The notes beneath the pieces were generated by a model. That model did no database searches, was not told the origin of the DNA, and was given only the letters and a program-made list of their open reading frames with translations. Both the position numbers and the translations under genes were made by a program. A stretch of DNA of 64,000 nt. It comes from Hysterium pulicare CBS 123377. Its lineage: Eukaryota > Ascomycota > Dothideomycetes > Hysteriales > Hysteriaceae. The stretch is taken from positions 1-64,000 of the forward strand of contig AJFK01000053.1 in assembly GCA_000467715.1 (NCBI GenBank), read 5' to 3'. Shown in pieces: positions 326 through 64,000 of the stretch (within the stretch, counting starts at the first letter, position 1; the number at the start of each line of letters is the position of its first letter).

Positions 326-3305
326 ATGGACTTGATAGCTACGGCCTTCGATCCACTTTCTGGTATCGATGTTCCCCTGACGAAGGTTGTACCGTATGAC
401 TTCAAAGGGTTTGCTACATTTCCAGCTCGACATGGCCTCGAGTTGGGCTCATTGCTAAGCCCAACGGGTTCCCTTGACTCCATTGCGACTTCAATCCAGT
501 CCTGGTTATACTTTGGGCTTCTTGCTGAGTTCTTTGAGCAACCGATGGACCTGGCCTACTTTACTCGTAAAGATTGTGGCATGCAGAAATTGCTAAGTTC
601 CCTGCCGCTGAACCGTCTTATGGCAGCTCCATTATCCAGGATCCCAGAAAAGTTATCTTTACTTCAAGAGGCAAATCAAGCACTAAGAGAAGTCGAACAG
701 AGCTCCTTATATCGGGACTTGATCTCACCAGTTGTGGAAATCGGACTTTCGATTCGGATACTTCTCCACGTTCTAGGAGAATTTATTGGTCATCCCTTTG
801 CCGATTGGTCTCTCCATCCGTTATTAAGCAAACGCTTGTTGGAGCGAGGCTGGTGCCGATCACAGATCAGTGAAGTCAACCGGCTAAACAACAACGTTGT
901 AGCATACTACCTCTCGCATCTTAACCGCCAGAATCCGAACAAACTTGACCATAGTTCTTGTCTCGACACCCATTGCACAGCGAGAAATGTATCAGGGGCA
1001 CTACAAACTCGTCATAATCATGCTACCGGCGGAGACGACTGCCCCCTTATATCAGTGGACACAGCAAATGTCAGGAGAATAATAGAACGAGGAGACATCC
1101 CACTTGTGTCTATTGACCACCCAGCCAACGGAATTTTGCAGCTACGAGTTCGTTCTGCGAAAGTCACGGATCGCTATATCGCTTTCTCTCACGTATGGTC
1201 TGATGGACTTGGGAATCCATCCTCGAATGCATTACCACGATGCCAGTTGGAGCGTTTGGCTTCCTATATCTACAACCTACCCCATCCTTCTAGCAGACCT
1301 TTGCACGGGGACTTGCGAAGTGTAATCAGCTATGGCCCGATTTCGGTAGACTTTTCGAGAACAAGTTTCGTCTTACGCAAGAGATCTAGATCAATACATT
1401 TCTGGATGGATACATTATGCATTCCGGTGGGAGACGACGACGAGAGTAAGGACCTCAAAAACCGAGCAATCAACCAGATGGCCTTCATATATGGCAGGGC
1501 TTCTCAAGTGCTCGTCCTAGATTCCTCACTTCAACTTCTCAACATTGAAGGACTTCAAAAAAGCGAACTGCTTGCTCACTTGAACTTCTCCGGATGGAAC
1601 AGCCGATGTTGGACTTACCAGGAGGGCTCGCTCACTAGCTACTGCTATTTTCAGTGCGCAGACGGCGCCGTCAATCCACTCGATTGCTTCCCCACGAAAC
1701 TAGGACTAGAAGAAAGTACTTATGACGTTATGGGAAAAACAAGACTCCTCACACTATGGCAGACGATTAACCAGTCCTTCAAAATTTTCACTTATCAAGA
1801 CTTTTTGCGATATATGTTCCGCTCCCAGACCAAGAAACTCTCGAAGCCTTGTCAAGATCTAATTGCCCAAATGATCTATCAATCCATGCGTTCACTGTTT
1901 ATAAGATCTATGCATATTTCTGGATACCAGGAGTCGTCTTTGCTATTTGCCGAAGATATCAGAAGCGACAGCAAGTGGTGGATCCAACACTTAGTAACCG
2001 CATGGAATGCCTTAGCTAAAAGGTCGACAACTAAGAGCGAGGATGTGCCCGCCATAATCGCAAACTTGCTAGGCTTTCACTCTTATCAGATAATGGCACT
2101 TCCCCAAGATCAGAGACTGAAAAGAATGCTCTGGAGCGGCGATACGCTACCAGTGTCGATTTTTTACAATCCCGGCCCTCGGATGAGTCCTGGGACAAAT
2201 CACCGGAGCAGATGGGTACCCACATCAATTGGTCCAATGCCGCTGGATGAACTACCGCTTATGTATTTCGATGTCACGAAAAACCTGACTTTAGACAGCC
2301 GGAAGATGTCACGTACGTCGGTGCCTGATGTCATCATTCTCGATCAATCCATACCCTTAGATGCGGAAGAGTTCATACTTCGGTCAGAGGACGATGAATG
2401 CTGGATGATGAAGTGTTTGAGAACATCAAATGATGAACTAAAAGTTGATTACTATCCGGCCACATGTTTAGTATTTCACCGCAAAAGGCGACGCGGGGCC
2501 TGCCTTCGTGTCATGAAAAATGAAGCACGAGAGGTCATCAGTCTAACTGGAGTCTACGATTGTCCATTCGTCGCAAAACTAACTCATTTGTGCCTCACTG
2601 ATAGAACGCCCGTCTACAACTGTACCTGGCTTACGAAAGAAGAATCCTGGACAATCACCCTTCTTAATGGTACGTCACTCTTGGATCCAAGGCAGCTAGC
2701 TACTTCTCTCTCCACAGGCCCCGTAAGACTAACTTTGATACATTCCAGACATGACAAGCCAGAGTGAACCGACCCCTCGCATCTCCAGAGCCAACACAAA
2801 AACCATTTTGGGACCCCGAGAAAACATCTCTTGGGCATTCAAAGTCGTTGGGATTCTTGCACCCCTTATACCTCTGCTTATCATCCCAACCGTCATTCGA
2901 ATATACATCGCCGTACAACTCGGTTGGCAGGATCTTCCCGTGCTCGGTCGCGCATCGTTCATCACTTTCGCCATCCAACGAATCCCTAGTCCACTGATAT
3001 TTATACCCCTAACGCAAATCCTATTCATCATTGATCGCCGCAACCTGCAGGCTTTAACCACCACCGCAGTGGCGTACGTTGTATTAGATTGTCTCTGGAT
3101 CATTTACTGTATAGCGATGATGCCTATTCTCATCCAGCAGTGGATGAAGTATCGATTCGAGGCTCAGCTGGCAGTTTGGAATGAACATCCCATGGCAGGG
3201 AAGGATATCGAGAGCTTTTGGATAGGACTTAGACCGAAATTACCAAGGTGGATTGTGAAACGGATCGAGACAGTCGCAGGATACAGAGGTCGGGATCACG
3301 TTTGA
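326..3305 (+). CDS. Long HET-domain protein with C-terminal membrane tail
   Basis: HET proteins trigger heterokaryon incompatibility, a cell-death response to non-self fusion. Exons are 326-2669 and 2749-3305, giving 966 aa. The join is supported by a GTACGT donor at 2670, a CTAAC branch site about 15 nt before the CAG acceptor at 2748, and a preserved frame. Residues 1-200 form an N-terminal module with a 'SWLYFGLLAEFF' motif. A Cys/His patch (DHSSC...HC...C) lies near 207-245. The HET core starts near 282 with 'RYIAFSHVWSDGLGN', followed by 'FWMDTLCIP' and 'RCWTYQEGS'. After the junction (residue 782) come about three hydrophobic helices near 806-915 ('VVGILAPLIPLLIIP', 'SPLIFIPLTQILFII', 'YVVLDCLWIIYCIAM') and a basic tail. 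If the intron is retained, translation stops at 2767 and yields an 813-aa protein with no membrane segment. Three relatives lie at 53-61 kb. Family assignment is firm; the membrane tail rests on the splice model. Confidence 0.85.
2670..2748 (+). other. 79-nt intron that decides soluble versus membrane HET form
   Basis: The donor is GTACGT, the branch is CTAAC and the acceptor is CAG at 2746-2748. Splicing moves translation into the frame encoding the three-helix tail. Retention, or use of an inner CAG at 2715-2717, keeps the original frame and ends at the 2767 stop. Retention is an inference; only the alternative frames are seen directly. Confidence 0.7.
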
Positions 3306-39451: not shown

Positions 39452-40447
39452 CCCTGGATATAGCAAAACCATCATTTTGGAAACGGTGGGGTTATGTTAC
39501 CTTACATATATTAAAGTCCTTACTAAACGATCACCCAATAAGTCGATCCTTTGGTACGAATCCTGAAATAGAATCCGAAAGAAGTAGATTGTTTAAACAT
39601 GCTTATATCTTGGCAGGCGGGATCATAAAGCTCTCAGTTTAATCGATGAGAGGCGGCGCCACGGTCCGATTTGACGAATCCTTCGCTTGAAAAGTTGAGA
39701 TACGTATGCAGGACGTTTCCGCAGGGGATACGAGGATACAGGTGGTGCGCAGTAAGACTTTGCAGGCATCATCCCTCATCGAACAAGTTAAGACTAGCGC
39801 TATGCGTGAACGTTAAAGGAACGAGCAACAGTTTTTACATATTAATTGTCCGGTGGTACAAATTCTACTTCATACAGAGGATCATAGTCGGCAAGCCGGG
39901 GTTGAATCCTACAGCACTGCCGATCTGACATTCAATTTCAAAGTTTGATTCCACATGCTGTCATTGCTAGGACTTCAACTATCGTAGCGAAAAGCCGCTG
40001 CAAGCGTTTCGTCGAGAATAATAGGCCCCAACCGAGGTTGCATGGTGCGAGGCATACTCGGCAGCCAAAAGCTTCTGACGAATAGCGTTCATCTCATACG
40101 AGTTATATATGCCTTACCTGGAAGGACTGGAAAGAGAAATTAGGCGATCTGCCTAAATGCGTCAACCCTTTCTCTACACCGGGTTATCCTCCCTTATGGC
40201 TTCATTCGCACGTTTGAATGGGCGAATTGCTTAGACTGCTGTTCTTTAGCTTATGCTCTTCGACTCCGTTTTGTTATGGTTCAGGTCTTGCAACGGACAT
40301 ATATTGGACTGCACGCATGTATTAGATTCCCTTACGATAATCATTGGATTTTCCTCATCGAGTTTTTTTCCAAAGTATAAGCGGGCAAGATCCGCCATTC
40401 TGCCCAATCCAGATAGTCTTTTACCCGGTGAGAAAGCCATTGGCAAG
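39452..40447. other. Intergenic
   Basis: This is 1 kb without a supported gene. A frame overlapping the end of the UbiA gene (39247-39642) and short frames to 39928 have no family. The frame of the next gene is open back to 40253, but the signal-peptide Met at 40448 is the better start. Confidence 0.35.
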
Positions 40448-42277
40448 ATGGCCTATCCAGCAATTGCTATATTCGGAGTTATACTACTGAGATCGCTGCC
40501 TGTGCTCGGCTTGCCTCAGAATGCAGATATCTTCTCACGCCAACAGAATTGTCGTTGCTTTCCTGGAGACTCTTGCTGGCCTAGTCTATCGAAATGGGAT
40601 GTACTCAACACGACCATAGGAGGGAAGCTTATAGCCACGGTCCCGTTGGCTAGCCCATGTCATATCAGTTCATTCGGACCATATGATGCGGCGAAATGTA
40701 AATCCCTACAAAACGATTGGTTAAATCCCAATACGCACGTTAACACCTCATCCTCGATTATGGCACCATTCTTTGCAAATCAGAGCTGCAATCCATTTTT
40801 ACCTAAAGAGGATCCATGCGTCGTTGGTGCTTATGTGCAATTTGCAGTAGACGCAAGAGAAGCTTCTGACTATAAAGCGGCTATCAAGTTCGCAACCGAA
40901 AACAACATTCGTCTTGTCATTCGAAATACGGGACACGATTGGATTGGAAAATCCACTGGAGCTGGCGCGCTAGCAATATGGACGCACAATTTGAAGAGTA
41001 CTCAAGTCCTGGACTATAACTCCTCCTACTACATTGGGAAAGCCCTTAAAGTAGGCGCTGGAGTGCAGCTCATTGAAGCTTTCCTGGCAACTCATAACCA
41101 CAGTCTTGTGAATGTAGGTGGGACCTGTTCGAGCGTCGGTATTGCCGGGGGTTATACGCAAGGCGGTGGTCACGGGCTATCTGTGTCCAAGTTCGGTCTG
41201 GGGGCAGACCAAGCCCTTGAATGGGAAGTTATTACCTCCAACGGGACCCTTCTTAAAGCGTCGCCGACAGAAAATTCGGATTTATATTGGGCGCTCTCTG
41301 GCGGCGGAGGCGGTACATATGGAGCAGTGCTGTCTCTTACAATTAGAGTGTACAAAGATCAGAAAACAGCTGCTGCCAACCTTACTTGGACCAATACTGG
41401 CATAACCCAACAGACCTACTATGCGGGGATTACATCTTACATCAAGGGCCTTCCTGCCGTGTTAGACGCTGGTGCGACGAGTACGTGGCTGAATACCAAC
41501 ACCTCTTTTTCCATGTCTCCCGCTGTTGGCGTGGGGATGACAAAAGCGAAGATTGACGAACTGCATCAACCAGTCCTAGACGAACTGAAACGACTTGGAA
41601 TCAATTATAGTAAGTGTTGTAGCAGGAATTGCGGGTTGGGGTGTCCTACTAAATATCCCATAGCATACTATTCGGCCGAATTTCCAACATTCTTGGACAT
41701 GTATGATGTGATGAATCCATTCACAGAAACTGCTTTGTTTCAAATCGGTAGCCGACTCATTCCGCGAAGCGTCATCTCGACAGCTTCAGATAACTTTACA
41801 AGCGCGCTTCGTTCGATTAATGCACACGGCGGTGTAATCTCAGGCGTATCTTTCAATGTTTCAAAGGCGCCTGCTGTACCTAATGCGGCAAATCCAGCGT
41901 GGCGAGAATCGTCTGTTAGCCTGGTAATTGGAACGTAAGCATGATTCTCAACCTTCCTAAATGGGTTCTCTTGTTAAACCTACCTCCCTAGGTATTTCAA
42001 CTACACCGACTGGAGTGAGGATCTTAGGCAACAAAAACTGATGACGGGTACGCTTGTGCCGGAACTGTCTCGCTTGATTCCTGGGGGTGGATCAGCGTAC
42101 CTCAACGAAGGCGACCCTTGGGAGCACAAATGGCAGGAGGTATTCTACGGTAGTAATTATGCTCGACTCAAGCAGATCAAACAAAAGTACGACCCTGACT
42201 CCGTTTTCTATGGCCGCACTGCGGTTGGAAGTGAGGCATGGATAGAGTCTAATGATGGAAGACTCTGCCGGTCGTAG
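40448..42277 (+). CDS. FAD-linked oxidoreductase (BBE-like) 2
   Basis: Exons 40448-41609, 41664-41934 and 41992-42277 give 572 aa. A signal peptide ('AIAIFGVILLRSLPVLGLPQ') precedes 'CRCFPGDSCWPSLSKWDVLN'. The covalent-FAD His lies in 'VIRNTGHDWIGKSTG' and the Cys in 'GTCSSVGIAGGYTQGGGHG', so bicovalent FAD is predicted; the C-terminus ends 'DPDSVFYGRTAVGSEAW'. The first intron is 54 nt, a multiple of three without an in-frame stop, with a TACTAA branch; the read-through would insert 18 residues between 'GINY' and 'YYSAEFPTFL'. The paralog at 32320-34080 has no introns. The enzyme probably oxidises a small alcohol or forms a ring in the secretory pathway. Confidence 0.9.
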
Positions 42278-48553: not shown

Positions 48554-49873
48554 TTACGAACCAATGTCGACCGATTTTTCCGATCCATTTGCACCATCCG
48601 TGGAAGACTCTACCATAGCCGAAGCGTTCGAACTACTCGCAGGAGAGTCCTTCCCGATCAACGTAGCATCGGCTGCATTCTTTTGGATTCCCGTATTCCC
48701 CGTCTCCCGTCGTTTCTTGTCAAGCTCGGTCTTGCGAGCTTCTTTCCAGTATTCGACTTCTTCTGGATACAAATCTCCGGGGAAAAAGGTGCCTAACATT
48801 GATCGTCCCATGCCAGGGTATGTTGCTTCAGCTTCTTGCAACGTTGCCATCACCTTGGGTTGTGCGAAGACTGCGCGATATTCAAGATGAATGCCGAATA
48901 CTTCGGGCCGCCTTGGTGCACTAGCGATGACTACTGTATGTAGCATCCCCAACGTCCCCACTGCGATGAGGAACCAAGTGCTCTCCCTAAGACCACACAC
49001 AGTAATGAGCAGTACGCACCACATTGTAGTTAAGCCTCCAAATAACCAAGTGATTGCGCTTTTGGGCGGAAATCCTTCAGCTGAACTCGCCAGGTCCTCC
49101 AGATCCAAACTCCGACCAGTACCAATAATCACGATGGCGTGCTGGGCGCCGTTGCCGCGCGTAAGAACCATCGTTTTCCTTGTGTTCTTATTGCAGGCCC
49201 ACCTTTCGTGACTCCAGTGAGGAAGGGACGCAGTGAGGTACGCCAGGAAAGTTCCGGCACTCGCGATCGCAAAGATTTCCCAAGTCCCCCAGAAGATCCA
49301 AGGCACTGCGGAGATGAGTAATTGTATACCACTCACAACGAATCCAGAGTACCAGTACATATCGCGATGAGGAACGCCTGCTTCCGCCTTCGAGCTTGCT
49401 TCAAACACTGAGATGCAGAGACCCGCTCTTCTTTTCCGATACGGTCCGGCTTGCTTCAGCATCTCGTGGAAACGTTGTCGCACCTGGATGGGCATCCATG
49501 ACTTCTCAAAGTCCCTAAGTAACCGACACAGGATCCAAGATTGATTGTTCCGAATATAGCCCCACTCGGTGCTAAAAACGATCGATGGAAACTCGGGCGG
49601 TGGCAGAAGTGCACTATCTCCGACGGCTGACAGCAAACCCATGAATGTATAGGTCACCCATCCGAAAGAGAAGACTACAGGAGTGGGAAGCAGTGAACGA
49701 TTGCCCGTTTGTTGAGCAAGTGCCCTCTGTACCACGTCGCCGCCGATGAGAAGGAGCAAAGAGAGTATATCATTTGGATTAATCCATTGCGCACGGAGCT
49801 GCTGGCCGACGGATGATCCAACAGCACCCGGCTGCGAGCTGGCAGGAATGCGGGGAAGTACTAATGGTGCCAT
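48554..49873 (-). CDS. Multi-pass membrane protein A (HET-island family)
   Basis: This is a single-exon 439-aa protein with five to six predicted helices: 'ILSLLLLIGGDVVQRALAQ', 'VVFSFGWVTYTFMGLLSAVG', 'IQLLISAVPWIFWGTWEIFA', 'FAIASAGTFLAYLTASLPHW', 'LTTMWCVLLITVCG' and 'FLIAVGTLGMLHTVVIA'. A soluble loop contains 'WGYIRNNQSWILCRLLRDFE', and another 'LTRGNGAQHAIVIIGTG'. The end carries 'LQEAEATYPGMG' and 'TFFPGDLYPEEVEYW', then a Ser-rich tail. It is a paralog of the protein at 56733-58033. No enzyme motif is seen. It is downstream of, and on the same strand as, the HET gene at 50395-52492, suggesting a linked membrane partner, but function is unknown. Confidence 0.8.
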   Translation of the reverse strand: MAPLVLPRIPASSQPGAVGSSVGQQLRAQWINPNDILSLLLLIGGDVVQRALAQQTGNRSLLPTPVVFSFGWVTYTFMGLLSAVGDSALLPPPEFPSIVFSTEWGYIRNNQSWILCRLLRDFEKSWMPIQVRQRFHEMLKQAGPYRKRRAGLCISVFEASSKAEAGVPHRDMYWYSGFVVSGIQLLISAVPWIFWGTWEIFAIASAGTFLAYLTASLPHWSHERWACNKNTRKTMVLTRGNGAQHAIVIIGTGRSLDLEDLASSAEGFPPKSAITWLFGGLTTMWCVLLITVCGLRESTWFLIAVGTLGMLHTVVIASAPRRPEVFGIHLEYRAVFAQPKVMATLQEAEATYPGMGRSMLGTFFPGDLYPEEVEYWKEARKTELDKKRRETGNTGIQKNAADATLIGKDSPASSSNASAMVESSTDGANGSEKSVDIGS

Positions 49874-50394
49874 TCATTGATATCTGCGCCCTCAATGTAC
49901 TGCTCGCGAGAATATAGGTTTGCAATGTGGTACGGAGTTAATAAGTCTTTACGCCTGCCCGAGGGTTTATCTTGACGACACTGATAGGGTTCTCACCCTA
50001 CGTGCACACCACACAGTCGTTATCGGTATATCATGTGACGGAAGCGTTTGAGCCTCACCCCTCACCGGTTGGCCTTTAATAAGGGTCTTTGCTCGAATGA
50101 ACGAGGGAACAGGGCACAGCCGGCTCGCACAAGACAAATCTATTTGTTCGGCTACCTGTAGGCATCCGTGCAGTCCAGGATCAAATCGAGAACGATTGCC
50201 TCATGCACATCAAACGTCATTGCATCATTTGTATTCCCTAGTGTGTTGCAGCGTGGCGGTTAGCTATGCAAGGCATCGGTCAAATTAGAATTCCAGACCA
50301 CCAGCTATCCTGATTCAGCCTTGCGCCTAGAGCAACTAGCAGGGTAGAGTATGTACTTCGCAGTACTAACGGTGCTCGAATTGCTTCCTCTGTC
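49874..50394. other. Intergenic
   Basis: This is the promoter of membrane protein A and 3' flank of the HET gene. Nothing else is seen. Confidence 0.35.
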
Positions 50395-52492
50395 TCACAC
50401 CAGAACGACAATCCTCTTTTCAGCCTCAAGGAAAAACGCCTTTGCCTCGTTCGGCTGATAAAGGAAATTAAACATGCCCACTCGAAAGAAAGTATCTTCA
50501 TCGGCAGGCTGAATCATTATACCAGCACACTCTGTAAGGTGCATAACTGTTACCTCGATGATTTTTCCCTCGAGGTGTGGAGAGACTCTGGCATAGTCGC
50601 TACCAAACCTCGGATACGTTGCCTTCACTTCAAAAATGTGAAATTCCCATCTCGTTTTACCTCGTAGCAGGGTTCCTTCGACATTACGACAAGGTCCTCG
50701 TAAGGTTATTCTTCCGCCCTTTACTCGTCCGAATGAATTGAGAGGGGAGAGGGGGTCCATAGAGTACCCTAGGACTTCACTTGTATAGGTGGAGGCACTA
50801 TATGATGGATCCTTCCTCATCCAACTCACGCCGCCGTCTACAGAAGCCCAAGACCAACTAGGAGCCTGGTTGTCTGCTGGTGACATTCGAGGATCGTCAA
50901 CGATTGATGGCTGTCCGTCCGGATAGTCAGGATAGCCTCTGGGAGTGCCTCGAATCCATACAAGCTGTGCGAGCAGAAAACTTTTGCGTTCTCCGTTCTC
51001 ATGCCACAATCCAGCCAAGTATTGGCTTCCTGGGAATGCAGTCTGAAATTTGGCTGCAAGCCCAGCTATTGACCGCAAACGATCCTCCTTCCGGGTTAGA
51101 TGGCGTGGGCTGTAGTCACTAACCGTGTCTTCCCAAAGCGCCTTCCACCATGCGCTATTTTGTGGTCCCGACTCTATTTCATTGAAGAGAAACGGAGGAA
51201 GACGTGCATTTCCGTCCGATGAACCGTCATTTGGACCCCCAAGTTCTAATTGACGGCTTTGACATTGCCACACTACATGGTTCATGCCGTATATCAAGAC
51301 TCTGGGGGACAATAATCGTTCTTCGAGCGTCCATGCGCGTCGGCTGATAGGCTCTTTCAGGAGGTGAAAACGAAATTTTGGTTGGATACGTAGCTTTCCT
51401 CTAGCTCCATTGGCGCAAGCATAGGGTAAGTCAAACGGTATAAACCAGCCTGTTCCACCCTCGACATCATCGTTAGAGGGAGGCCGCGCATTGGTAAAGC
51501 CATCTGCACAGGACGTCGCACACGCAGCGCTAATAGTTATTAGAGAATTACTAAATACTTCTTTCATTCTTCCAACTTCCCTTTCGCGATCTTTAAGGCA
51601 ATCCTGGATAATGCAAATAGAATCAACCCATAGATATTGGATACCTAGTTGCTGCGTAGCAAGCAAAGCATCCATTATTGTCTGAGGGAGATTGAGTACC
51701 GGGAGCTCTCGTTTGTGGGTCTCGACGGTACTAAGAAGCGTCATTACATCCTGTTCTTTCATCCCCCAAGCATAGCTGAGAGCGGCGTAGTAACCCGGAG
51801 AATGATCAGTTTCTATGAGGCGAGGAGCCAGATCCGAGCCTTTGGGGCCTAGGTCAATGACCCTCGTCGGCATCGGTTTAGCAATTCTCTTATTACAGCC
51901 AGCATGCTTACTAAAGCACTCCTCGATCTGGTGCTGGACGAGCTCAAAGGCATGTGTTGACGCCTTATCAATTACAATTGGTCGGGTAGTGATATACTTC
52001 GCAGCTGGGTCGTCTGATCCGCGTTAGCCCGCACCCTCGATATGAATTGAATCCGGGATTACCTTCAGCGGCCGAGACCAGAACCTTAAAGAGATGATGA
52101 CACCACCGTGGTGGGCGATGCGCCCAAAACCCAGAACTTTCCGCAAGATAGACGTTCAAACTGCCAATATCAGACGCTACAGAGCGCTGCAATGGACGTC
52201 TTGTAGCCAGGAAGAGCAAGATAACGCTTTCACCCGAAGCGAATCTTTCCTGCGATTGTTTTCCGTTAAGCCGTCGAACTTTTTGGATGGCTTTTTGAAT
52301 TATTTGGCACATGGTGCATCCGTTCGCGGATTCCTGGGTTATATCCCCTATTTTTCTGCGTATTTTTACTCCATTTTGCTCTAGGAAATCCTTGAGTTTG
52401 GGGAGTGGAGTTGATTGCTCCAGGAGTCCAACCTTCCTTTTCGTAGAGGCAATCTCCGAACAATGCCGACATATATTTGAAGTGTGCTGCAT
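50395..52492 (-). CDS. Canonical HET-domain protein
   Basis: Exons 52492-52063 and 52013-50395 give 682 aa; the 49-nt intron has a GTAATC donor and a CTAAC branch. An N-terminal Cys/His region ('CRHCSEIAS', 'GCTMCQIIQKAI') is usual for this class. The HET domain follows: 'YYAALSYAWGMKEQDV', 'LPQTIMDALLATQQLGIQYL', 'WVDSICIIQDCLKD', 'ISAACATSCADGF' and 'RRAWTLEERLLSPRVLIYG'. The C-terminal part has 'RITLRGPC' and acidic motifs typical of the family. It acts in non-self recognition with programmed cell death. It is not of the long subtype found at 326 and 53-61 kb. It diverges from the truncated long-HET relative at 52988. Confidence 0.9.
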
Positions 52493-52987
52493 GTTTCAAT
52501 TGCGTTGATGTTTGATGCTCGGTCTGGAGGGATAGCCGGATAACGAAAGAAAGATGTGCCTAAGAGGCCACCAGGCTCTAAATGCACGCGGCTCGGCTTG
52601 TGGCTAGATTCTATCTTTGAGCGAAGAAAACTACCAACCCCCTTTGTACCGTTCACTGATCAAGTGTTCAGAAAGGCTGAAACCAGGCAGATTGTCTGGG
52701 GCCTAGAAGTCCATTGGTCCCGTCTTCGTCCAACACAGTAATCATTCCACCCTTGAAGGCAACAAGGCTGCCAAAGACCGGTCAGTAGACGACGACGGCA
52801 CGGCAGAAGCTAGGCAAGCTTATCGTCCAATGACGGTCTACAGCGTGGCACCTAGTAGGCTGACGCAGCCTTCAGCCTGGTGGAACGCCAGAATGCTGCC
52901 GCAGGAAAATCTTTGCCTTATTAGTCGCCTTGTCTCTTACACAGAAGTTGCCACCCCGCGAAAAGTTATATGCTTTCCCTCACCGGT
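52493..52987. promoter_or_regulatory. Divergent intergenic region between two HET genes
   Basis: The canonical HET gene (minus) and the truncated long-HET gene (plus) diverge from these 495 bp. No operator is identified. A 91-codon minus-strand frame overlaps the 5' end of the HET gene in another phase and is not called. Confidence 0.4.
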
Positions 52988-54034
52988 ATGGAGCATCTTC
53001 CTCGAATCATCGACGGCGCGCCAGAATCAGTCCCCATTGTATATCTCGGGCATATTTGTGCCTACGACAATGGTGGCTTCAGAACATTCCCGAGCCGGCA
53101 AGGTTGGAGACTGACCGGCCAGGACTCTTATAGCGATACACTCGTTCGTGAGAGGAACGCACCCGCGACTGTAGCAGAAACAACCGCGTTTCTTCAAGCA
53201 TGGCTATTTTTCGGGCTGCTTAGTGAAACATTCAACATTGTTGGTCTTCACGCAAGCAAGCAAGACTTCATTCGCCAAGATGAAGATGGCTCCGTCGTTA
53301 CGAGCGCTCGGCTACCGGAGTACCTAGAGAGGTGGCGGCATATTAACGACAATCAGGAACCGGGAACCCAACGAAAATATCTTCATGAGGTTTTTGAACT
53401 CCTGCATGAAGCTGGAGATATTGTCGACAGCCTCCTATCATACCCAAGGCTTCAATACGCAACGGACCACGATTCCATGACGAAGCTGATCATCGCGGAA
53501 TCGATTGCTATGCTCGGTGATAGTTTGATGAACGCGGCGAAACGGATTTGGGCTCCTTTTAGGGCCGATATACAAGGGCTGGTTCGACATCGCATTCGCA
53601 AGGGGCTTAGGTCCAGTGAGCCGGCGACGCTTTCATTGAAGCGCCTGGAGAAGCGAGGCTGGTGCAAGAGCACTCGCATGATGCTCCACCGTTTAGTAGA
53701 CACCACGGGCTTGTACTACGCAGGAATGCTTGCAAGATCGAAGATGCCGAACTGTCATGACGGTTGCTCTCTTACAGACTGCATGATGATGCAGATCAAT
53801 AAAGGGAACTACGAGCCTCAGCATGCATCCCCAATAGAAGTGAGCGTATTCACCCCTTCCTTCAATCTGAGGGAAGCGTACAGACGTTCGTCTCCGAGCA
53901 CTATCCTACAATCCAAGTCTGCTCGGTCTCAGTTAAGTTTCCATAGAACGCTGATGACGAGAATACACTATCCTCTCCAACTCAGGTGCTTTGTCCTCCA
54001 CGTAAAGACACAAGCGCGCAAAAACGAGCGGTGA
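52988..54034 (+). pseudogene. Long-HET relative lacking the HET domain
   Basis: The frame encodes about 348 aa. It holds only the N-terminal module of the long HET family: 'GGFRTFPSRQGW', 'FLQAWLFFGLLSETFNIVG', 'RLEKRGWCKSTRMMLHRLVD' and the Cys motif 'CHDGCSLTDCMMMQ'. After about residue 280 the match stops and the tail is unlike its relatives. The SHVW, WIDTLC and WTLQE motifs are all absent. Its last 53 bases overlap the 3' end of the convergent HET gene at 53982-56183. It may be a truncated gene, or a short form that could act as a regulator; I favour a relic. An alternative Met lies upstream at 52970. Confidence 0.6.
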
Positions 54035-56183
54035 TGGGTTCGGTCCTTGGAACATCCGGCAGGTTGTCATTCTGGATCAGGGTAACCAAGCAGACAATAA
54101 AGTCCGTGTTCTTCGTAACATCTATATATTCTCTGAAAATGAGAGCTGGACGCTCAATTTCCAACAGATTGATGTCTGTATTGTCATCGTCAATTACTGT
54201 GCAGTTACGAAGACTATACATGGTCCATGGTCCCTCTCCTCTCCTCAGCGCTACAGTGTCTTGTGAAAGTTGCCTGGACGGACCGTGGGTATTATTGGTA
54301 TCTTTAACGGTGGGAGCGATCAGAATGGTACCATTTGCGATGACTGGCAGGCCTTGTGGTATCAAAGTAGCCCACCTATACTGCACAAATGCAAAACCAG
54401 CCTTGCGCAGAAAAGATTTCGGAGCCCAGCCCATGCCAGCCTTGTCCGTGAATTTTGGCCCACTTAGAAAGAGAACGTCCTGCGGAATTCGGGGCAGTTG
54501 TCGAAGCAAAAGCTCCATTCGTCGTTCTGGGTCATCACTCTGGAGTAAGAATCCGGGGTCCATGCCCAAAATTGTGGATATACAAACAGGCTCATCGGAC
54601 GCTCTGGAAGTGTTTCTCCAAGCCAAAGTTTCAAGCAGGACCAGAAAGGCAGCCAGAACAGGCGACTCGCCCTGAAAGTCTGCGTAGTCGGGAGGAGCGT
54701 CACTTGCATAGTCCCTCCATAAACCCACGGCCTCGAGATGAAAGAGTGGTTCGTAAGCCTTCGTCGGGAGAGTACTAATGAGGCATGTCGGTTGATGGTT
54801 CAAACATTCCTGGACAAGCTGACTGAGTGGCAATAATCCATCCTTGAATTGGAAAACCAAGGCTTCTTTCATGTTAAGGCTTGCCTCCTGTAGAGTCCAT
54901 AGACGCCTTTGCCAGGTAGAACCTGCTACTCGAACAGCTCTTTCTACCGGGTTCGTGGGACCGACTTGCTGTAAATCCTCATCAAGCACAAGGATAACGC
55001 TAGCGTCTCGATATGTCGCACCCATGTGGCGGAGCGCGAGAACCCGACACCGACCAGATACTGGCACACAAATAGTATCTATCCATAGCCCAGCAGTACA
55101 CCATGGCCCTACTTGCTTGAGCAGATAGAAAAGCCGCGACATTTGGCACGTAGGTAAGGTGTTGCCGTTACGATTTCCAAGCCCATGGCTCCAGACGTGT
55201 GAGAGCGCAATATAGAACTGTGATGGATCTCGACGTACGACTACCAGCCTGACTTGGCCATTCAGTTCTTCCATCTGTACTACAGGAAGACCGTCGGACT
55301 CGATAATGAATTCGAGTTGCTCCGTTGTGGCTCCGAGAAACGGACAGTTACCGTCACATTGAGAAGTGTGCTTGGACTTGTAATCTCCCTCCACTTGGTC
55401 GCAAAGACAGATGCTAGCCGAACAGCGACTATGGTCTCGTATTCTCACGGGGGAGAGCTCTGTCAAATAATAGGCAGTGCTTGCATCCATGGACGGGAAA
55501 GCAGCAAGCTGATTGGGACACCAACCACCGCTTATCAGTTTTCTAATCAGCGTTTCTTCCAAGGACCCTGGTTCTCGTTTTGTTACCAGCCCAGTGGCGA
55601 GTGAGAGCCTGTGATCGCGAATACGTGTGAGGTGGTCATCACTCCATGGTACGAAGGGAAGAATCATTAAACTCTCCGCTAAGCTGGTAATCGATAAGAC
55701 AACAGGCCAGCGATCAGAACAAGCAGAAAGTGTTGCAATTGTAGCTCCTGGCGGTCTGAAAGATGCGTAGTGCATAGAGATCCTAAGACAAAGCTCAATC
55801 TGCTTTACTGCTGCTGCTCGTGTCCCTGTCGGCAAGCTCATCAGGGCTGAAGCAAATGACCTGACATAGTCTGCCAGTCTTTTTTTGGTCACGTATCCGG
55901 CGTCGGTGAAGTCGTCTAGTATAACGGTGATGCCTACGGCGGAGAAGACTTCGCTCACAACCCCGAAAAACAGCCATTCCTGAAGAATTGCAGTCCGCTG
56001 CTGTAGACTCAACCCATTCGAGTCAGTCCAGGAGATATCGTCCGTCTCTGAGATATCTGGGTTGAAGTCTCTGCGGGCCGGGTAGTTGAGGAAATCTCCA
56101 ACCTCGTAAGGTTGGGTCGAGAGGTGTGGTATGAGAAGAGATGAATCTGGCGTGGCACCCTCAACAGGCGGGAAATGATCCAT
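53982..56183 (-). CDS. Long HET-domain protein (intact)
   Basis: This is an uninterrupted 733-aa frame. The N-terminal module has 'GDFLNYPARRDFNPDIS' and 'ILQEWLFFGVVSEVFSAVG'. 'RKLISGGWCPNQLAAF' and the Cys/His patch ('DHSRCSASICLC', then 'KHTSQCDGNCPF') lie near 215-280. The HET core follows: 'FYIALSHVWSHGLGNRNGNT', 'GLWIDTICVPVSG', 'VILVLDEDLQQ' and 'RRLWTLQEASLN'. A beta-rich C-terminal region without helices ends at 'CALVSLRGGQST'. Unlike the 326-3305 gene there is no membrane tail, but a multi-pass membrane gene sits 550 bp upstream on the same strand. This is the best intact reference copy for the subfamily in the window. Confidence 0.88.
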   Translation of the reverse strand: MDHFPPVEGATPDSSLLIPHLSTQPYEVGDFLNYPARRDFNPDISETDDISWTDSNGLSLQQRTAILQEWLFFGVVSEVFSAVGITVILDDFTDAGYVTKKRLADYVRSFASALMSLPTGTRAAAVKQIELCLRISMHYASFRPPGATIATLSACSDRWPVVLSITSLAESLMILPFVPWSDDHLTRIRDHRLSLATGLVTKREPGSLEETLIRKLISGGWCPNQLAAFPSMDASTAYYLTELSPVRIRDHSRCSASICLCDQVEGDYKSKHTSQCDGNCPFLGATTEQLEFIIESDGLPVVQMEELNGQVRLVVVRRDPSQFYIALSHVWSHGLGNRNGNTLPTCQMSRLFYLLKQVGPWCTAGLWIDTICVPVSGRCRVLALRHMGATYRDASVILVLDEDLQQVGPTNPVERAVRVAGSTWQRRLWTLQEASLNMKEALVFQFKDGLLPLSQLVQECLNHQPTCLISTLPTKAYEPLFHLEAVGLWRDYASDAPPDYADFQGESPVLAAFLVLLETLAWRNTSRASDEPVCISTILGMDPGFLLQSDDPERRMELLLRQLPRIPQDVLFLSGPKFTDKAGMGWAPKSFLRKAGFAFVQYRWATLIPQGLPVIANGTILIAPTVKDTNNTHGPSRQLSQDTVALRRGEGPWTMYSLRNCTVIDDDNTDINLLEIERPALIFREYIDVTKNTDFIVCLVTLIQNDNLPDVPRTEPITARFCALVSLRGGQST

Positions 56184-56732
56184 ACTTCTTCAGGCGTTGA
56201 AGGAGCCCCGCGACAAAGTTCTATGCGAGTACTGGCTCGGAGCGATATAGGTTATAATTCGAGGTAAGCTACTCAGGTCACTGAACAAAGGTGAGTAATA
56301 AGGCAGTACAAAGTAGAAACAGTATCCTGTTGTCGGTGTTCCAAGGCTCTCTGCTCCAAGCCACGGTGTCACGAGGGATGGAGGGGTATTTGATTCTTCG
56401 GCTAATCATTGGACGATGATATGAGGCTGGCCGTGTGGTGAAGTATCCGACGAAAGCGTTGACGATCATTTCGACGTCTACTAGATTAGCCACAATTGTC
56501 CGAATCAACCAGACTACTGCCTTGCTCTTTGGTCCACCTGCTAATTATTTCTAACAGGGACGATACAGCAATAAAGAGACCACAAAGAGCCCTCCTAAAC
56601 AGTGAACCGAACCAGACTACACTAGGCCTTACTCGAACAAACGCCGGATTACTAACCACACTAGGGTCATATAACATGCACCTCAACTGTTTCTAGTGAA
56701 GTCTATTTAGATAATCAGTTGGCCCACTTGGA
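56184..56732. other. Intergenic between membrane protein B and long HET gene
   Basis: Both flanking genes are on the minus strand, so this holds the HET promoter and the 3' flank of membrane protein B. No repeat or RNA is recognised. Confidence 0.4.
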
Positions 56733-58033
56733 TTAGGTTTCATCCTCAGTCTGTTGTACATTTTCTTTTCTGCCTTGCATAGGCTCCGCCATGATACTGT
56801 TGGGTTGTGATCGAAGCTGATCCTTCTTTTCCGCCCAGAATTTCTCCTCCTCTGGCCTCAAATCCCCAGGAAAGAAAATTTTGACCAAAGGCAGCCCAAC
56901 CCCAGGATATCGACGCTCGACTTCCTGGAGGACAGGCATAGTCTTGATTCCATCGATAGAGTCGTGGTGCGTGAGATTGATACCGTGGCCGGCGGGTGAC
57001 CGTGTAGCGCCTGCTACGATGATGTTTTGAAGCATTCCGAGGAAGCTATAGGCTTGTCAGCTCACTAGTATCGTTGAGAAGTAAATGCTTTTGCGTACCC
57101 AACACCCAAAAGGAACCATATCTCGGCTTTCAAGGCCCCAGCGCAGATCAAGAAAACGACCCAGAGCGCCGCGATGACTGCAAGAAAGACTCGCGAGAAT
57201 CTTTCGGCGACAGGCGAAAGCCGAATGTGAGAAGCGGCCAAATCCTCGAGATTCAATCCCTCTTTGCTCGTGTTTTGGATTACAAACACATGCCTGTGCC
57301 CGTTACCTCGAGTAAGACTGTAGCAGCCGTCGTGCCTACGACAACACCACTTTTCAACCGCCCACTGTGGCATCAGGCTACCACCAAATGCCAATATGGT
57401 TCCAGAGAGTGTGAAAAGAAACACACTCCAGTTTCCACGCACTATCCAAGGAATCATGGCGATGATCAATTGTAGCGGTATGACAAAGATGCCAATAAAC
57501 CACACCCAATCTCTCTCTAGCACTCCGCCACGCCCAATGGCATGATACACGATGACACTGAGTCCGCCTTGCTTCTTGGGGGCCTTTTTCTCTAAGTCTC
57601 GGAGCAGCCTTGCGAGAACCCAACTCGTGTTGTATCGAACATACCCACTTCTGGTATTCGCAACCAATAATTGGACGTCGGGCTCTGGCATCAGTCGTCC
57701 GTCCCCGACAACAGATGCAAGAGCAGAAAATGAATACGCTACCCACCCGAAACTGAAAGCTATCGGGGCACCGTATCGGGAACCACAGATTTGTGCTAAA
57801 GCCTTTTGAACAATGTCCCCGCCGATGATAAGGAGAATTGTTGTAAAGTCGGTTGGATTACTGAGATAAGATTTGAAGAAGCGTGAAGGATTCTCGTCGG
57901 GTAAGATGGCCGGGATTGAGGAGACTTGTGCTGATGCTGGTTCTGTAGATTCTGTAGGGAGAGCGCGACAGCTCCAAATGAACGTCAATCCGAGGAAAAG
58001 GGCAACTTTGTTCCAAGATCTGGTTTTCAGCAT
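56733..58033 (-). CDS. Multi-pass membrane protein B (HET-island family)
   Basis: Exons 58033-57099 and 57045-56733 give 415 aa; the 53-nt intron has a GTACGC donor and restores the motif 'VGFLGMLQNIIVAGA'. A signal-like leader ('KVALFLGLTFIWSCRALP') precedes five to six helices: 'TTILLIIGGDIVQKALAQ', 'IAFSFGWVAYSFSALASVVG', 'IFVIPLQLIIAMIPWIVRG', 'VFLFTLSGTILAFGGSLMPQ' and 'VFLAVIAALWVVFLICAGAL'. Shared loops with paralog A are 'SGYVRYNTSWVLARLLRDLE', 'LTRGNGHRHVFVIQNT', 'LQEVERRYPGVG' and 'IFFPGDLRPEEEKFW'. Function is unknown; neighbours on both sides are long HET genes. Confidence 0.82.
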
Positions 58034-58683
58034 CTTTGAATAGGAAGTTTATCAGCGAGAATAATGCAGAGAATATCGAGCGTGTAATAATTCAGGTTGA
58101 TCTTGGGTGGATTGGATGGTATCACATGAGTTTGAGTAACCGCAGAGCTGTCATTATTAAATAAAATGAGCAACGCGGGTCCGGTGGCGCAAGCTGCAGA
58201 CTTGATTATGCAGGTGAAGTGGCGCACAAAGGGTGGCCTAGCGACAAGGCTGAGATCGGAGGAGTCTAAATAGAAAGCTGAGATACAGTCAGATCTTGCG
58301 CTTGCAACTTCATATTGGGCTTATTCCCAAAGCCACCATTATGCTATCGGTCCCGCGCTGAAACCGTTGAGCGAAGTAAAGGCTGTACCCAGGTAGCATC
58401 AAACGTGAAGCTATCCTCAGTGCGCAATTTGACTCGACTAAAACCCCCAACCCGGCGGGTTTTCTTGGAATACTTAAATTGCGACAAACCTGGCAACGAA
58501 TCGAACATGATCAGAGCTCGGCGTTCAGAGAATGGTACGTGTTTGGCGGTGGCTCCCAAAAGGAAGATGATCGAGAGTGGAATGAGGCGAGTCCGGTGAG
58601 GATCGGACAACTCAGCCTGCTGTGTCATACACAGTCTGAGACAACAAGCTCGAGGCCCAAAAATCACCATCACTTCTTTTGGA
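58034..58683. promoter_or_regulatory. Divergent intergenic region (membrane protein B / long HET)
   Basis: Membrane protein B (minus) and the long HET gene (plus) diverge from these 650 bp, so they can share regulation. The HET frame is open upstream to 58479, but those residues do not match the family. No operator is identified. Confidence 0.45.
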
Positions 58684-61204
58684 AAATGGCTGATCACATT
58701 ATTTCGGTACCAGGACACCACATCAAGCCCATCAGAATTCCGTACGATGGGCCGGTATATGATCGCGGTCCTTGGTCTTCGTTTCCGGACCGACAAGGCT
58801 GGGATGCAGCCTTGCTGAGTGAAACCGAAGCACCTCCAAGCTCACAGGAATATTGCAAGTTTCTCGAATGCTGGTTCTACTTTGGCACAATTCATGCCGT
58901 ATTTGGGGACATCTTTAAGCAAGAGCAATTATTGAGAGTGGATGAAGATGGCCAACAGTGCATTACGACGACTTGCCTTCAACAATACGTCGATCGCGCG
59001 CTTTCTCGAGGACGCCGAGCATTCATAAAAACCTCTTATGCCGTACTCAACGACACTTTCACTCAACTCAACAGACCAAAGGTTCGTGATTGTATCAGAA
59101 TGGATATGCTCTTCGCGATCCATGTGCTTGCGGCTTCTCTTAGCCTTCTTGCTAGAAGTAAATCCGTCAGAGAAAGCAATACTGGTTTGAACGCCTACTT
59201 CAATTCGAATCCTGAGATAACGATAGATTGGGTACAGACAAAGCTGGTGTCACAGGACTGGTGTCCGAGCGAGGTTGGTAGATTCTGGGAAAGTGACTCA
59301 CTCCACGTTCTGAGCCGGGCATATGCTCTCCAACTCATCCGACCAAGCCGTGAGAATTCGGCTGTTGATCATTCCAGATGCTCAAAGAGTGAGTGCTTTG
59401 AGAACTACGTAGACAATGCTACGTATAAGACGAAGCACGTCCAACCAGAATGCACCTGCAGGCATCTCAGTCCAGATATAGAAAAAGTAAAGAGAATCTT
59501 ACGGAATGGAGGCACGCCTCTTGTACGAATATCAAGCATTAAGAACGGCAATGATTACAAGCTTAAAGTCCTCCGATATCATCCGGGAAGGCGATATGTT
59601 GCCATATCACATGTTTGGTCAGATGGTTTAGGTAACCTTGATGGGAACTCGCTTCCTCGTTGTCAAATTAAGAAACTGAAGGATAGAACTCGACCTGTCC
59701 TCTTGGATGGCACGTTGAATACGATTGATGATCCTGCACGTGCAGTTGTACAGTTTGCAGCTCATTGGGCCGGCAGCTTGGCCCGTGGTCGGCAAGACGC
59801 AACAGTCCTGTGGATAGACACATTATGCGTACCACGGGAACAAGAAACAAGGAATCTAGCTATTAAAGGAATGAAGAAAGCTTATCAAGATGGTATGTGA
59901 TCCCTTCTAAACTACGGGAAATCGCATCATGGCCTTTGCGCTTGTGGACTTCATTGCTCAAGCAGGCTTCAGAGACATACTGATGATCAATTATAGCTTA
60001 TCGTACGTTGATTCTTGATTCGGAACTTATGTCGACTTCGACGTAAGCATCAAGCAAAGAGGAGATCCTCTTCCGCGTTTTACACTGCTCAGGATGGATG
60101 CGCAGGCTCTGGACTCTCCAAGAAGGCATAGCCGCAAGCAAACAATTATATGTCGCATTCGCGAACAAAACAATCCAAATGAACCAATTAGCTTGGCAGC
60201 TAGAGATCAAGAAGGATCGAAAAGGTTTCAACCCACGTTCGCAGTTCAATGCCTTTGTAAAACCACTCGTACTTTATTGTTTCGCAACATGGGCTAATTG
60301 GTTTTTCAATGTCACAAGTTCGCACTCAACTTATGACAGAGTGATTGATAGGCTCATTTATATGGGACCAAAATGCTCCGGGATTCTTGATTCTGGTACA
60401 CTTGTTGCTACGACATGGGCCAACGTCGCCGCCAGAGCAACGAGCAGGGACGAGGATCGGCCAGTCATCCTCGCCGGCATAGTCAATCTAAATGCGTCAC
60501 CTCTACAGGACATCCGCGGAGATGCTGAGCGCAGAATGAAAGCTTTCTATCGCATGGTACCTAAGTTACCTCAAGGCATAATATTTGAGCCTGGACCGAG
60601 GTTCGATGAATATGGGTGGCGGTGGGCGTTGAAAACTTGCCGCTCGCAGGAGAATATGATTCAAGGAAGAGTCATGGATTCAAAGCCGAGGATCGTGAAA
60701 CCAGGGGGCCTGCTGGTGAAATATCCAGGTTTTATTGTCCAAAACGATAATGGTCTAGGCTTCTATCCCGAGGAAGATCTGGAACCTTTCTTACCAGAAG
60801 GAAAAAGCGGTTGGTTTTTCAATGATGTCCGAACCGTCAGCGAGCAGGAACGAGAACTATTAAGCACCGGATGCATACTCGTATCCCCAAAATATCCATC
60901 AGCAGAAGGGGGAGTTCCTACGCTACCTAAACTTTCCGGACAAGTTGGACTAATTTTCCGGCAATCTTACGAAAGGGTGAACCACTTTCTATTTGGTGGA
61001 GGCTCCGGCAATAATTACGCGTGTGAATGCGTCGTGTTATCTCTGATCAAGCAGAATAAAGGTGTCCGTTTTGCAAAGTTCGAATTTCAAGGCGAAGTAA
61101 CGCGCTCGCCGATGACCCAGTCTCAAAAGATGGACTTGTCAGAAAAAGGCATTCCCACCATCTCGAAGCCGCTGGAACGACAACAGAAATGGTGCGTAGG
61201 ATAA
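58684..61204 (+). pseudogene. Long HET-domain gene interrupted by an in-frame stop
   Basis: The start 'MADHIISVPGHH' at 58684 fits the subfamily. Module motifs are 'PWSSFPDRQGW', 'FLECWFYFGTIHAVFGD' and 'LVSQDWCPSEVGRFW'. The Cys/His patch is 'DHSRCSKSECF' with 'KHVQPECTCRH'. The HET core has 'RYVAISHVWSDGLGNLDGNS' and 'VLWIDTLCVPREQET'. An intron of about 104 nt (59893-59996, GTATGT donor) leads to 'AYRTLILDSEL'. The same frame later continues with 'CSGWMRRLWTLQEG' and a long C-terminal region to 61204 without membrane helices. One in-frame stop separates these last two blocks, and I find no intron that removes it while keeping the frame. It may be a recent pseudogene or encode a short form ending inside the HET domain. 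Confidence 0.7.
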
Positions 61205-61896: not shown

Positions 61897-63902
61897 TCAG
61901 CGTATTACGGCGCGGACACCTTTGGTATCCGCTTTTGGGAGGGGGATCAAGAAGTCATGTGCCATCCTCACGTCACTCTCGTCGGTCTCAAAAAGTTCGA
62001 GTTTCGGGCCGCCGGAGCGATACAATACGGCAAGAACAAGGCTCATTTCAGCCATGGCTAAGCTGATAGCCAGGCAAAGAAAAACGTTAGCTAATCAAAC
62101 GAGCATACAGTGATGCAGGAACATCACAGGATTCATGGGAGCTTACTTCATTCCCACACAATTCCTGGAACCTCTGCAGAAAGGTACCCAGCTTCGGTGC
62201 ATGGCTGGATCGATATACCCAATCCAACGTTCGGGGATAAACTTATCAGGTAATGGGTATACTTTGGGGTCACGGTGCATCAAGTAAGCCGACATCCCAA
62301 CCGGCACCTAATAAAGCGTTAGGGCTATGCTTTACTCTCCGTTTTGGGATGAGAAGCTTACCCCGGCTGGAATCGTGTATTCCCCGTATAGAATTGGCTC
62401 ATCAGGAGAGACTCGGGGCAATCGATGCATTACTCCGTAGCTGATCCTGTAGAAAGGCTTGAATAAGGAGACCTGAAATGTACCACTAAATCAAGTATAT
62501 ATACGCATGTACTTACCGTAAAGACTCCTTGACGATAGCTTGTAATAACGGCAATTGCTCAAGCTCGGGCCAGGTCGGTATGCTCTGAGGCCAGCCAGCC
62601 ATAGTAGCTCTCAGCTCAATTTCCAATTTTGATCGGAGCTCAGGTTGTGAAAGAATATAGTATGATGCCACGCCAATTATGCGCGCTGTCGTTATAGTGC
62701 CAGCTGTAAGCATCACTTGCGCTTCCTTGGTAAGACGGCCTTCGGTTTTCTCTGATGCTGGCATATTGCTGTTGAGAACGTGATTGAATACAGAAGGTAA
62801 GCTCTTGTCCGAGGCTTGTGTTGTGGCTCTGCGAATATGCTGTCTGGCGCTCTACAGTGGAATTTCAGTGTGCACGGCAGGAAAAGTAGGACCAACAAAG
62901 TTCGTACCTGCGTGAATATATTGAACACCTGACCTTGAGGAAATGCCCATAGAAGGAACCTTTTGGGGACGTTGTTGACAATCCTATTTTTATGTGTAAG
63001 CTTGCGAGAAGGCATATAAGCTGGCAACCTACCGGATAAGCCATGGAAAACCAGTAAATAAGGGCGTTTGTATTACCATTTTGTGGACAACGTTATACCT
63101 AGAACATATTCCATGGTTATGAAAGCTCTTATGAGAAGGATGGAATGACACACCACTCTGGTGAGAAATTGGGATCACTTAGGAATTGATCGTAAGAGTC
63201 GTCATTGCCCAAGCATATTCTTCCCATGATATCGCCTGAGTAACAAAAGAACGCATGATCCAGCCGAACAACTTGATCCTTGCCCTCGAGCTCCCTAAAC
63301 CGAGACTCTAATTTTAATGTTACCTCAGCAAGGATCTGTTGTAAGGAAATAATGCCCTTCTTTGAGAAGAATGGTTCGAAAGGCTTTCTTCTATTCCTGT
63401 GGAGGTCGTGGTCCTTCGTGAGCAGAAAAGACCCTAAGCAAGTCAATTGGATGGAGATTTCATAGGAATGCTTTGCCTTACCATCGAAATCAAGACCTTT
63501 GGCAAAAACGTCATAATGCTCGGTTCGTCGCCTATACTCTGTAACATAAATCTCGTTATAGAACTTCGAGTCGTGGATTGAGAGCTCGTCGGGATTGATT
63601 CGAACTATAGGGCCTGAAAAGTAATACTCATGTTAATATTCTTCATAAGCGCTATCAAAATAGGGTCACAGACCAAATCTCTTGTGCAATCTCTCGATTT
63701 CATAGATGAACTTCCCTTCAAGCCACCAATCAAAGTAGAACTCATACCAGCGTGTAGCGGCCGCAAGCTTGGGTCCAGGAAACCCAGCCAAGGTTGAGAA
63801 GTACAAGCGATAAGCAGCAATGCAAAGGGAATAAGCAAAGCAGGCCACTACGATAGCGATAAGTGGTATCGTAGAAAATGTAAAGCAACTAGTGAACGGC
63901 AT
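61897..63902 (-). CDS. Cytochrome P450 monooxygenase 2
   Basis: Nine exons (63902-63674, 63613-63482, 63433-63154, 63098-63033, 62983-62908, 62851-62517, 62446-62362, 62307-62147, 62062-61897) sum to 509 aa. The ATG at 63902 opens the membrane anchor 'IPLIAIVVACFAYSLCIAAY'; 'LAGFPGPKLAAATRWYEF' is the proline hinge. Further motifs are 'GPIVRINPDELSIHD', 'HRNRRKPFEPFFSK', the I-helix 'LTAGTITTARIIGVAS', the ExxR of 'IVKESLR', and 'FIPERWIG'. The heme loop is 'FCRGSRNCVGMN', whose Cys binds the iron. The family resembles trichothecene-type (TRI4/TRI11-like) fungal P450s. The usual acidic residue of the I-helix AGxET is Ile here, which could alter proton delivery. An upstream Met at 63992 is less likely. 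Confidence 0.9.
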
Positions 63903-64000
63903 TGCGATGTCTGCGTAGCAGTAACCAGAAGAGTGAATGCATCCAAACTTGAGACAGTCATGTAGATGGTGTGGATAAGTTACTGATAACACTAAGCCTT

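Follow-up and report, generated by a model that had tools for sequence, protein, structure and literature searches.

A probable local nest of divergent long HET genes with two membrane-protein neighbours in Hysterium pulicare

HET genes, known from self/non-self cell death, occur in large numbers in filamentous fungi, and little is understood about them; where they lie beside genes for membrane proteins, the question arises whether both kinds of gene work together or merely share a neighbourhood. The window analysed here, 64,000 nucleotides of Hysterium pulicare CBS 123377, raises this question; it covers the initial 64 kb of a contig of 68,475 bp (AJFK01000053.1, here C43) in a genome of 37.2 Mb and 596 contigs. 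Positions 48554 to 61204 carry memA (-), hetA (-), hetB (+), hetC (-), memB (-) and hetD (+), and a further HET gene, het1, lies near the start of the window. The original prediction saw in this arrangement an island of four HET-type genes and two membrane-protein genes, which was proposed as a candidate allorecognition system; its layout was largely right, the number of HET genes and their intactness were not. The explanation to which we give slightly better than even chances is that a subfamily of long HET genes, old and of fast turnover, forms a local nest here, accompanied by one ordinary HET gene and by two mem neighbours of a separate family. The HET and mem genes are real; functional cooperation of memA and memB with the HET genes is unsupported by the present evidence.

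The curated cut-off of the Pfam family PF06985 (22.5 bits) is exceeded by hetA, hetC, the first part of hetD and het1, with hetC and hetD barely above it. Three of the four HET-type genes proposed for the island thus pass; hetB lies below the cut-off and has no HET domain. It matched no Pfam family at expectation values (E) up to 1, and its similarity to hetC is confined to the N-terminal region (293 aligned columns, E 2.5e-17). Two kinds of HET genes can be distinguished: hetA is an ordinary member with at least 36 other places in its own genome at E<=1e-20 (80 of 127 candidates scored), and hetB, hetC, hetD and het1 form a divergent long-HET subfamily with pairwise identities of 23-35%. The splicing of the gene models is predicted from sequence. 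The frames of hetA, with one intron (52062-52005, alternative acceptor at 52014), and of hetC are open. hetB, which looks like a truncated copy or an N-terminal-only gene, stops where it meets the hetC 3' end on the opposite strand, with an overlap of 53 bp. Behind its first intron (59893-59996), the hetD reading frame is broken by a TAA at 60044-60046, after which it stays open to 61204; an alternative GT-AG intron of 155 bp (59893-60047) skips the TAA and loses part of the HET core, and the TAA may also be a sequencing error. Two of the four HET-type genes of the island therefore look truncated or interrupted, which fits birth-and-death turnover.

Is the grouping of these genes beyond chance? 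With hetC, het1 and hetD as queries, ten long-HET loci were found in the genome, four of which are located on this 68.5-kb contig; the random chance of four out of ten on this particular contig is about 2e-9, a value worked out after the cluster had been seen. The grouping of the long-HET subfamily is real; however, clustering is what one expects of duplicated families, and the grouping thus shows local descent or retention rather than function. A tree of eight long-HET members had no supported fork. For HET genes in general, a Pfam list was compiled in which 150 of 226 candidates were scored: 16 of these 150 places have another one within 12.7 kb, compared to about 14.6 expected at random, which shows that HET genes are approximately randomly spaced, without general clustering. 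Of the island genes, this list holds only hetA, and it therefore undercounts divergent members. In Neurospora, lineage-specific genes are reported to cluster with 61% of the HET genes (PMC10684091); a HET neighbourhood by itself is thus weak evidence of function.

The architecture of the long-HET subfamily itself also suggests a link to membranes. In het1, an intron with a branch-point match (2670-2748, GTACGT...CAG) can join the HET frame to a last exon encoding hydrophobic helices; other introns also fit, and the unspliced frame closes by itself at 813 aa. The membrane-fused HET gene that had been proposed at 0.3 kb is thereby supported by a good predicted intron. Among six other long-HET loci examined, those on contigs C341, C187, C22 and C276 have a same-strand frame with multiple transmembrane (TM) segments directly behind the HET frame. 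Canonical introns can join the tails in het1, C341 and C22; the C187 tail continues the reading frame beyond a stop and has only weak introns, and an intron scan found none that joins the C276 tail. Taken together, a multi-TM frame follows five of eight long HETs and one of 21 other open reading frames (ORFs) (Fisher p 0.0025), or three of eight versus one of 21 when only tails with canonical introns are counted (p 0.052), under a criterion chosen once the tails were already known. The count started from 31 ORFs of >=350 aa in about 200 kb and used 29 of them, without hetB and the first hetD half; the long-HET locus on C547 is a fragment and was left out. Tail-less long HETs are hetC and hetD, which have no TM frame downstream, and C150, whose 18.7-kb neighbourhood contains no frame of >=100 aa with two TM peaks. 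The recurrent tail favours a HET-membrane link in general. With the het1 tail alone as query, no other place in the genome was found at E up to 10, which counts against one common tail; the tails of C341, C22 and C187 share no more than weak similarity, with E of about 1e-3 to 5e-3 against a tiny database. At eight ordinary HET loci (stretches of about 3.4 kb each, several of which end too early for a judgement), no same-strand frame with two TM peaks was found directly behind the HET gene. At one of them, a divergent sugar-transporter frame adjoins the HET gene, showing that membrane neighbours of other families occur. A separate frame with four TM segments and no Pfam match is located directly upstream of the C187 long HET on the same strand (C187:44408-45406). 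Judged by titles and abstract openings in open-licence literature, no publication that deals with C-terminal membrane tails of HET-domain proteins stood out.

The two mem genes encode paralogous multi-pass membrane proteins, as had been predicted: memA and memB are 38.5% identical over 379 aa (E 6e-85), and each protein has six hydrophobic peaks at a loose threshold; at a stricter threshold, four are left in memA and five in the first exon of memB. The adopted memB intron (57098-57046, GTACGC...TATAG) is needed to obtain the protein of 415 aa; an alternative at 57105-57053 is less canonical and gives the same protein length. By eye, the N-terminus of memB is signal-peptide-like. Both proteins have in common the invariant blocks FSFGWV, GY.R.N.SW...RLLRD, LTRGNG and LEDLA, and the translations have a C-terminal FFPGDL.PEE segment in common. 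No Pfam or NCBIfam family was found for memA, and no NCBIfam family for memB, at E up to 1. Matches of memB to a phospholipase A2 (Pfam, 17.6 bits against a cut-off of 32.1) and of memA to an epoxide hydrolase (best PDB sequence match, E 0.083) were rejected as noise. The name "modin", a guess at what some annotations call the family, was also dropped, as no paper pairs this word with heterokaryon incompatibility. The mem family is presumably widespread in Pezizomycotina; in viral contigs and bacterial and archaeal genomes, no homolog was confirmed by scans with short exact patterns, which have a limited reach.

Searches of the genome with memA and memB returned only these two genes and a relic at C63:10017-10404. 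The relic spans memA residues 178-299, contains stops and a frame break, and lies among genes that look housekeeping-like by eye from their translations. memA is 56-58% identical to the relic and 37-39% identical to memB, so that memA and memB are not a recent tandem pair. No HET gene was found near the relic, neither in the list of 150 scored candidates nor in genome searches with hetC, het1, hetD and hetA (the last at E<=1e-20), and the C63 frames of >=150 aa that were listed had no blastp match to the HET proteins of the window. A local HET profile was weak, as it missed hetC and hetD, and is not a basis for this result. Since the sole other mem copy found in the genome is a relic with no HET neighbour detected, the pairing of mem and HET genes rests on one locus. 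Furthermore, memA lies beside an ordinary HET gene and memB beside long HETs, and no single mem-HET unit is repeated. Tandem duplication of such a unit is unsupported, given the different HET classes beside memA and memB, the closer relationship of memA to the C63 relic and a long-HET tree without a supported fork.

It had been argued that the fused HET gene acts as a Rosetta stone, linking the HET and membrane functions of the island. In single-sequence blastp searches against a tiny database, the best match between the tails and memA/memB had an E of 0.06, which is noise, and an unrelated, transporter-like frame from the neighbourhood of the C547 locus gave 0.004. As no relation to memA or memB is detectable, the tails are no Rosetta stone for the mem family, and this link was rejected at the sequence level. 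The idea that HET and membrane functions work together thus gains general support from an arrangement of both that is well supported in het1 and recurs in other long HETs; the part of it that concerns the mem family found no support. Two very unlikely explanations would nevertheless make memB a partner. The long HETs might be a class of their own, membrane-tethered death switches whose membrane module is either fused or supplied by a neighbour, memB in the case of hetC and hetD; the fused last exon would then be present in het1, C341 and C22, and probably in C187 and C276. If this were true, it would be a HET-based recognition system working at the membrane. Alternatively, and with as little probability, the fused gene could have been split, so that memB provides in trans the membrane function of the tailed HETs, as executioner or anchor, and hetC and hetD signal via memB. 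That hetC and hetD are tail-less while a multi-TM frame follows five of eight long HETs is consistent with such a split; however, the tails and the mem family have no detectable relation, the equally tail-less C150 has no frame of >=100 aa with two TM peaks within its 18.7 kb, and beyond memA and memB, no complete mem gene was found in the genome.

Several observations weigh against the nest of long HETs with separate mem neighbours. Both intact mem genes adjoin HET genes, although zones of <=5 kb around 159 HET places (150 listed and nine long-HET ones) cover 4.1% of the genome, a lower bound because 76 of 226 candidates were unscored. Two living mem copies beside HET genes are therefore mildly unexpected. 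Of the three tail-less long HETs, two, hetC and hetD, lie on either side of memB. The C63 relic is dead and hence says little about the living mem family. Finally, several known het loci are described as pairing a HET gene with a linked partner, namely het-c/pin-c (PMC2988816) and Bh/Bp (PMC10890737). In line with these precedents, to which the two-gene locus cwr-1/cwr-2 (PMC9550227) can be added, memA with hetA and memB with hetC or hetD might constitute two-gene recognition units, in which the HET protein reads a polymorphic plasma-membrane protein and kills on mismatch. The arrangement is as predicted: each mem gene adjoins a HET gene on the same strand (memA and hetA, memB and hetC, all on the minus strand), and memB diverges from hetD, with starts at 58033 and 58686. 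A HET gene adjoining a membrane-protein gene, as in het-c/pin-c, is thus present here, and both living mem copies lie beside HETs against the background of about 4%. We nonetheless regard recognition units as unlikely. They are seen at one locus, at which the mem genes, 7 kb from each other, do not count as independent cases, and hetD is interrupted. The long invariant blocks of memA and memB suggest a protein under constraint and not a hypervariable determinant. In addition, few HET genes act in allorecognition, with 4/132, 3/94 and 4/65 known cases given for three species (PMC10890737), and an Aspergillus fumigatus het study notes that most HET genes tested in Aspergillus oryzae gave no incompatibility reaction (PMC11138114).

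As a further alternative, the island might serve in defence against mycoviruses, competitors or similar foreign agents instead of other strains, with the mem genes being further, unrelated defence or transport genes. According to reviews, the majority of HET genes have no part in allorecognition; roles in immunity and a defence-island-like grouping have already been suggested there (PMC10197012, PMC12881547). It is quite unlikely to account for the island: direct evidence at the locus is missing, and apart from HET, no NLR, gasdermin or other defence family was found among the subset of window ORFs that was scanned with Pfam.

In the local nest of long HETs that we prefer, each intact long HET would be a stand-alone cell-death switch. 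The proposed architecture comprises an N-terminal region of about 300 aa, a divergent HET domain and a C-terminal region, to which several members add a membrane tail of two to four helices. The N-terminal region may sense a cue or be restrained by it, and the TIR-related HET domain, judging from the HET-domain literature, would act as effector of cell death. The C-terminal helices of tailed members, het1 among them, could hold the protein at a membrane. memA and memB would share the neighbourhood of these switches and, as far as shown, not their pathway. The tailed architecture is the part most worth following; a membrane tail that recurs within one subfamily of HET genes would point to a site of action that can be tested. 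The unannotated sequence flanking the HET domain is acknowledged as a knowledge gap (PMC10197012). Should memA and memB turn out to be true partners, recognition loci in fungi would gain a new family of partners.

Table 1. Coordinates of the island genes, het1 and long-HET loci with tail frames elsewhere in the genome (window positions unless a contig is named).
Feature	Position	Strand	Evidence
memA, multi-pass membrane protein, 439 aa, single exon	48554..49873	-	ORF, hydrophobic peaks, paralogy
hetA, ordinary HET-domain gene, ~679 aa, one predicted intron	50395..52492	-	PF06985 95.2 bits; intron scan
hetB, N-terminal region of long HET without HET domain	52970..54034	+	25.9% identity to hetC 1-274
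hetC, long HET, 733 aa, single exon, tail-less	53982..56183	-	PF06985 23.6 bits
memB, multi-pass membrane protein, 415 aa, predicted exons 57099-58033 and 56733-57045	56733..58033	-	intron scan; 38.5% identity to memA
hetD, long HET with in-frame TAA, tail-less	58686..61204	+	PF06985 26.1 bits (first part)
het1, long HET with C-terminal multi-TM tail, 966 aa, predicted exons 326-2669 and 2749-3305	326..3305	+	PF06985 33.6 bits
Long-HET locus with tail frame	C341:46144-49162		
Long-HET locus with tail frame	C187:45953-49153		
Long-HET locus with tail frame	C22:93275-96872		
Long-HET locus with tail frame	C276:34641-37457		

Other genes of the window were also recorded. Beside hetD lie cytochrome P450-like exons (62513-63998, minus strand), which were recognized by eye; the one exon scanned gave a weak, sub-threshold Pfam P450 match. 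A UbiA prenyltransferase gene and two genes for FAD-binding oxidases are located near each other (38465-39451, 40253-41938 and 32320-34080) and are possibly part of a secondary-metabolite cluster. Two F-box-like genes on opposite strands (10930-12453 and 16847-18304) are separated by about 4 kb, two gene pieces (28302-28991 and 35534-35974) carry PF20684, the fungal rhodopsin domain, and the frame 6948-8024 combines a GrpB domain with a GNAT acetyltransferase domain behind it.

Among the closest known systems, het-c/pin-c of Neurospora crassa resembles the island in its arrangement: the HET gene pin-c adjoins het-c, the gene for a plasma membrane protein (PMC2988816). However, het-c is a single-pass, glycine-rich protein, whereas memA and memB are multi-pass proteins, and polymorphism and killing have been shown for het-c/pin-c, whereas the island is known from the genes of one genome. 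The N. crassa locus cwr-1/cwr-2 is a two-gene recognition locus, and like the island, it has a multi-pass membrane gene; in contrast, cwr-2 has eight TM segments and PF11915 domains, to which memA and memB had no match in the Pfam scan, and is paired with a polysaccharide monooxygenase rather than a HET gene (PMC9550227). The clusters of HET and lineage-specific genes in Neurospora resemble the island in that HET genes are grouped with poorly annotated genes; the large ones lie towards telomeres. Compared to the PF06985 family itself, hetA, hetC, the first part of hetD and het1 are members by the curated cut-off; the island departs from the family in that hetC and hetD are marginal, hetB is without the domain, and members of the het1 type add a C-terminal membrane tail.

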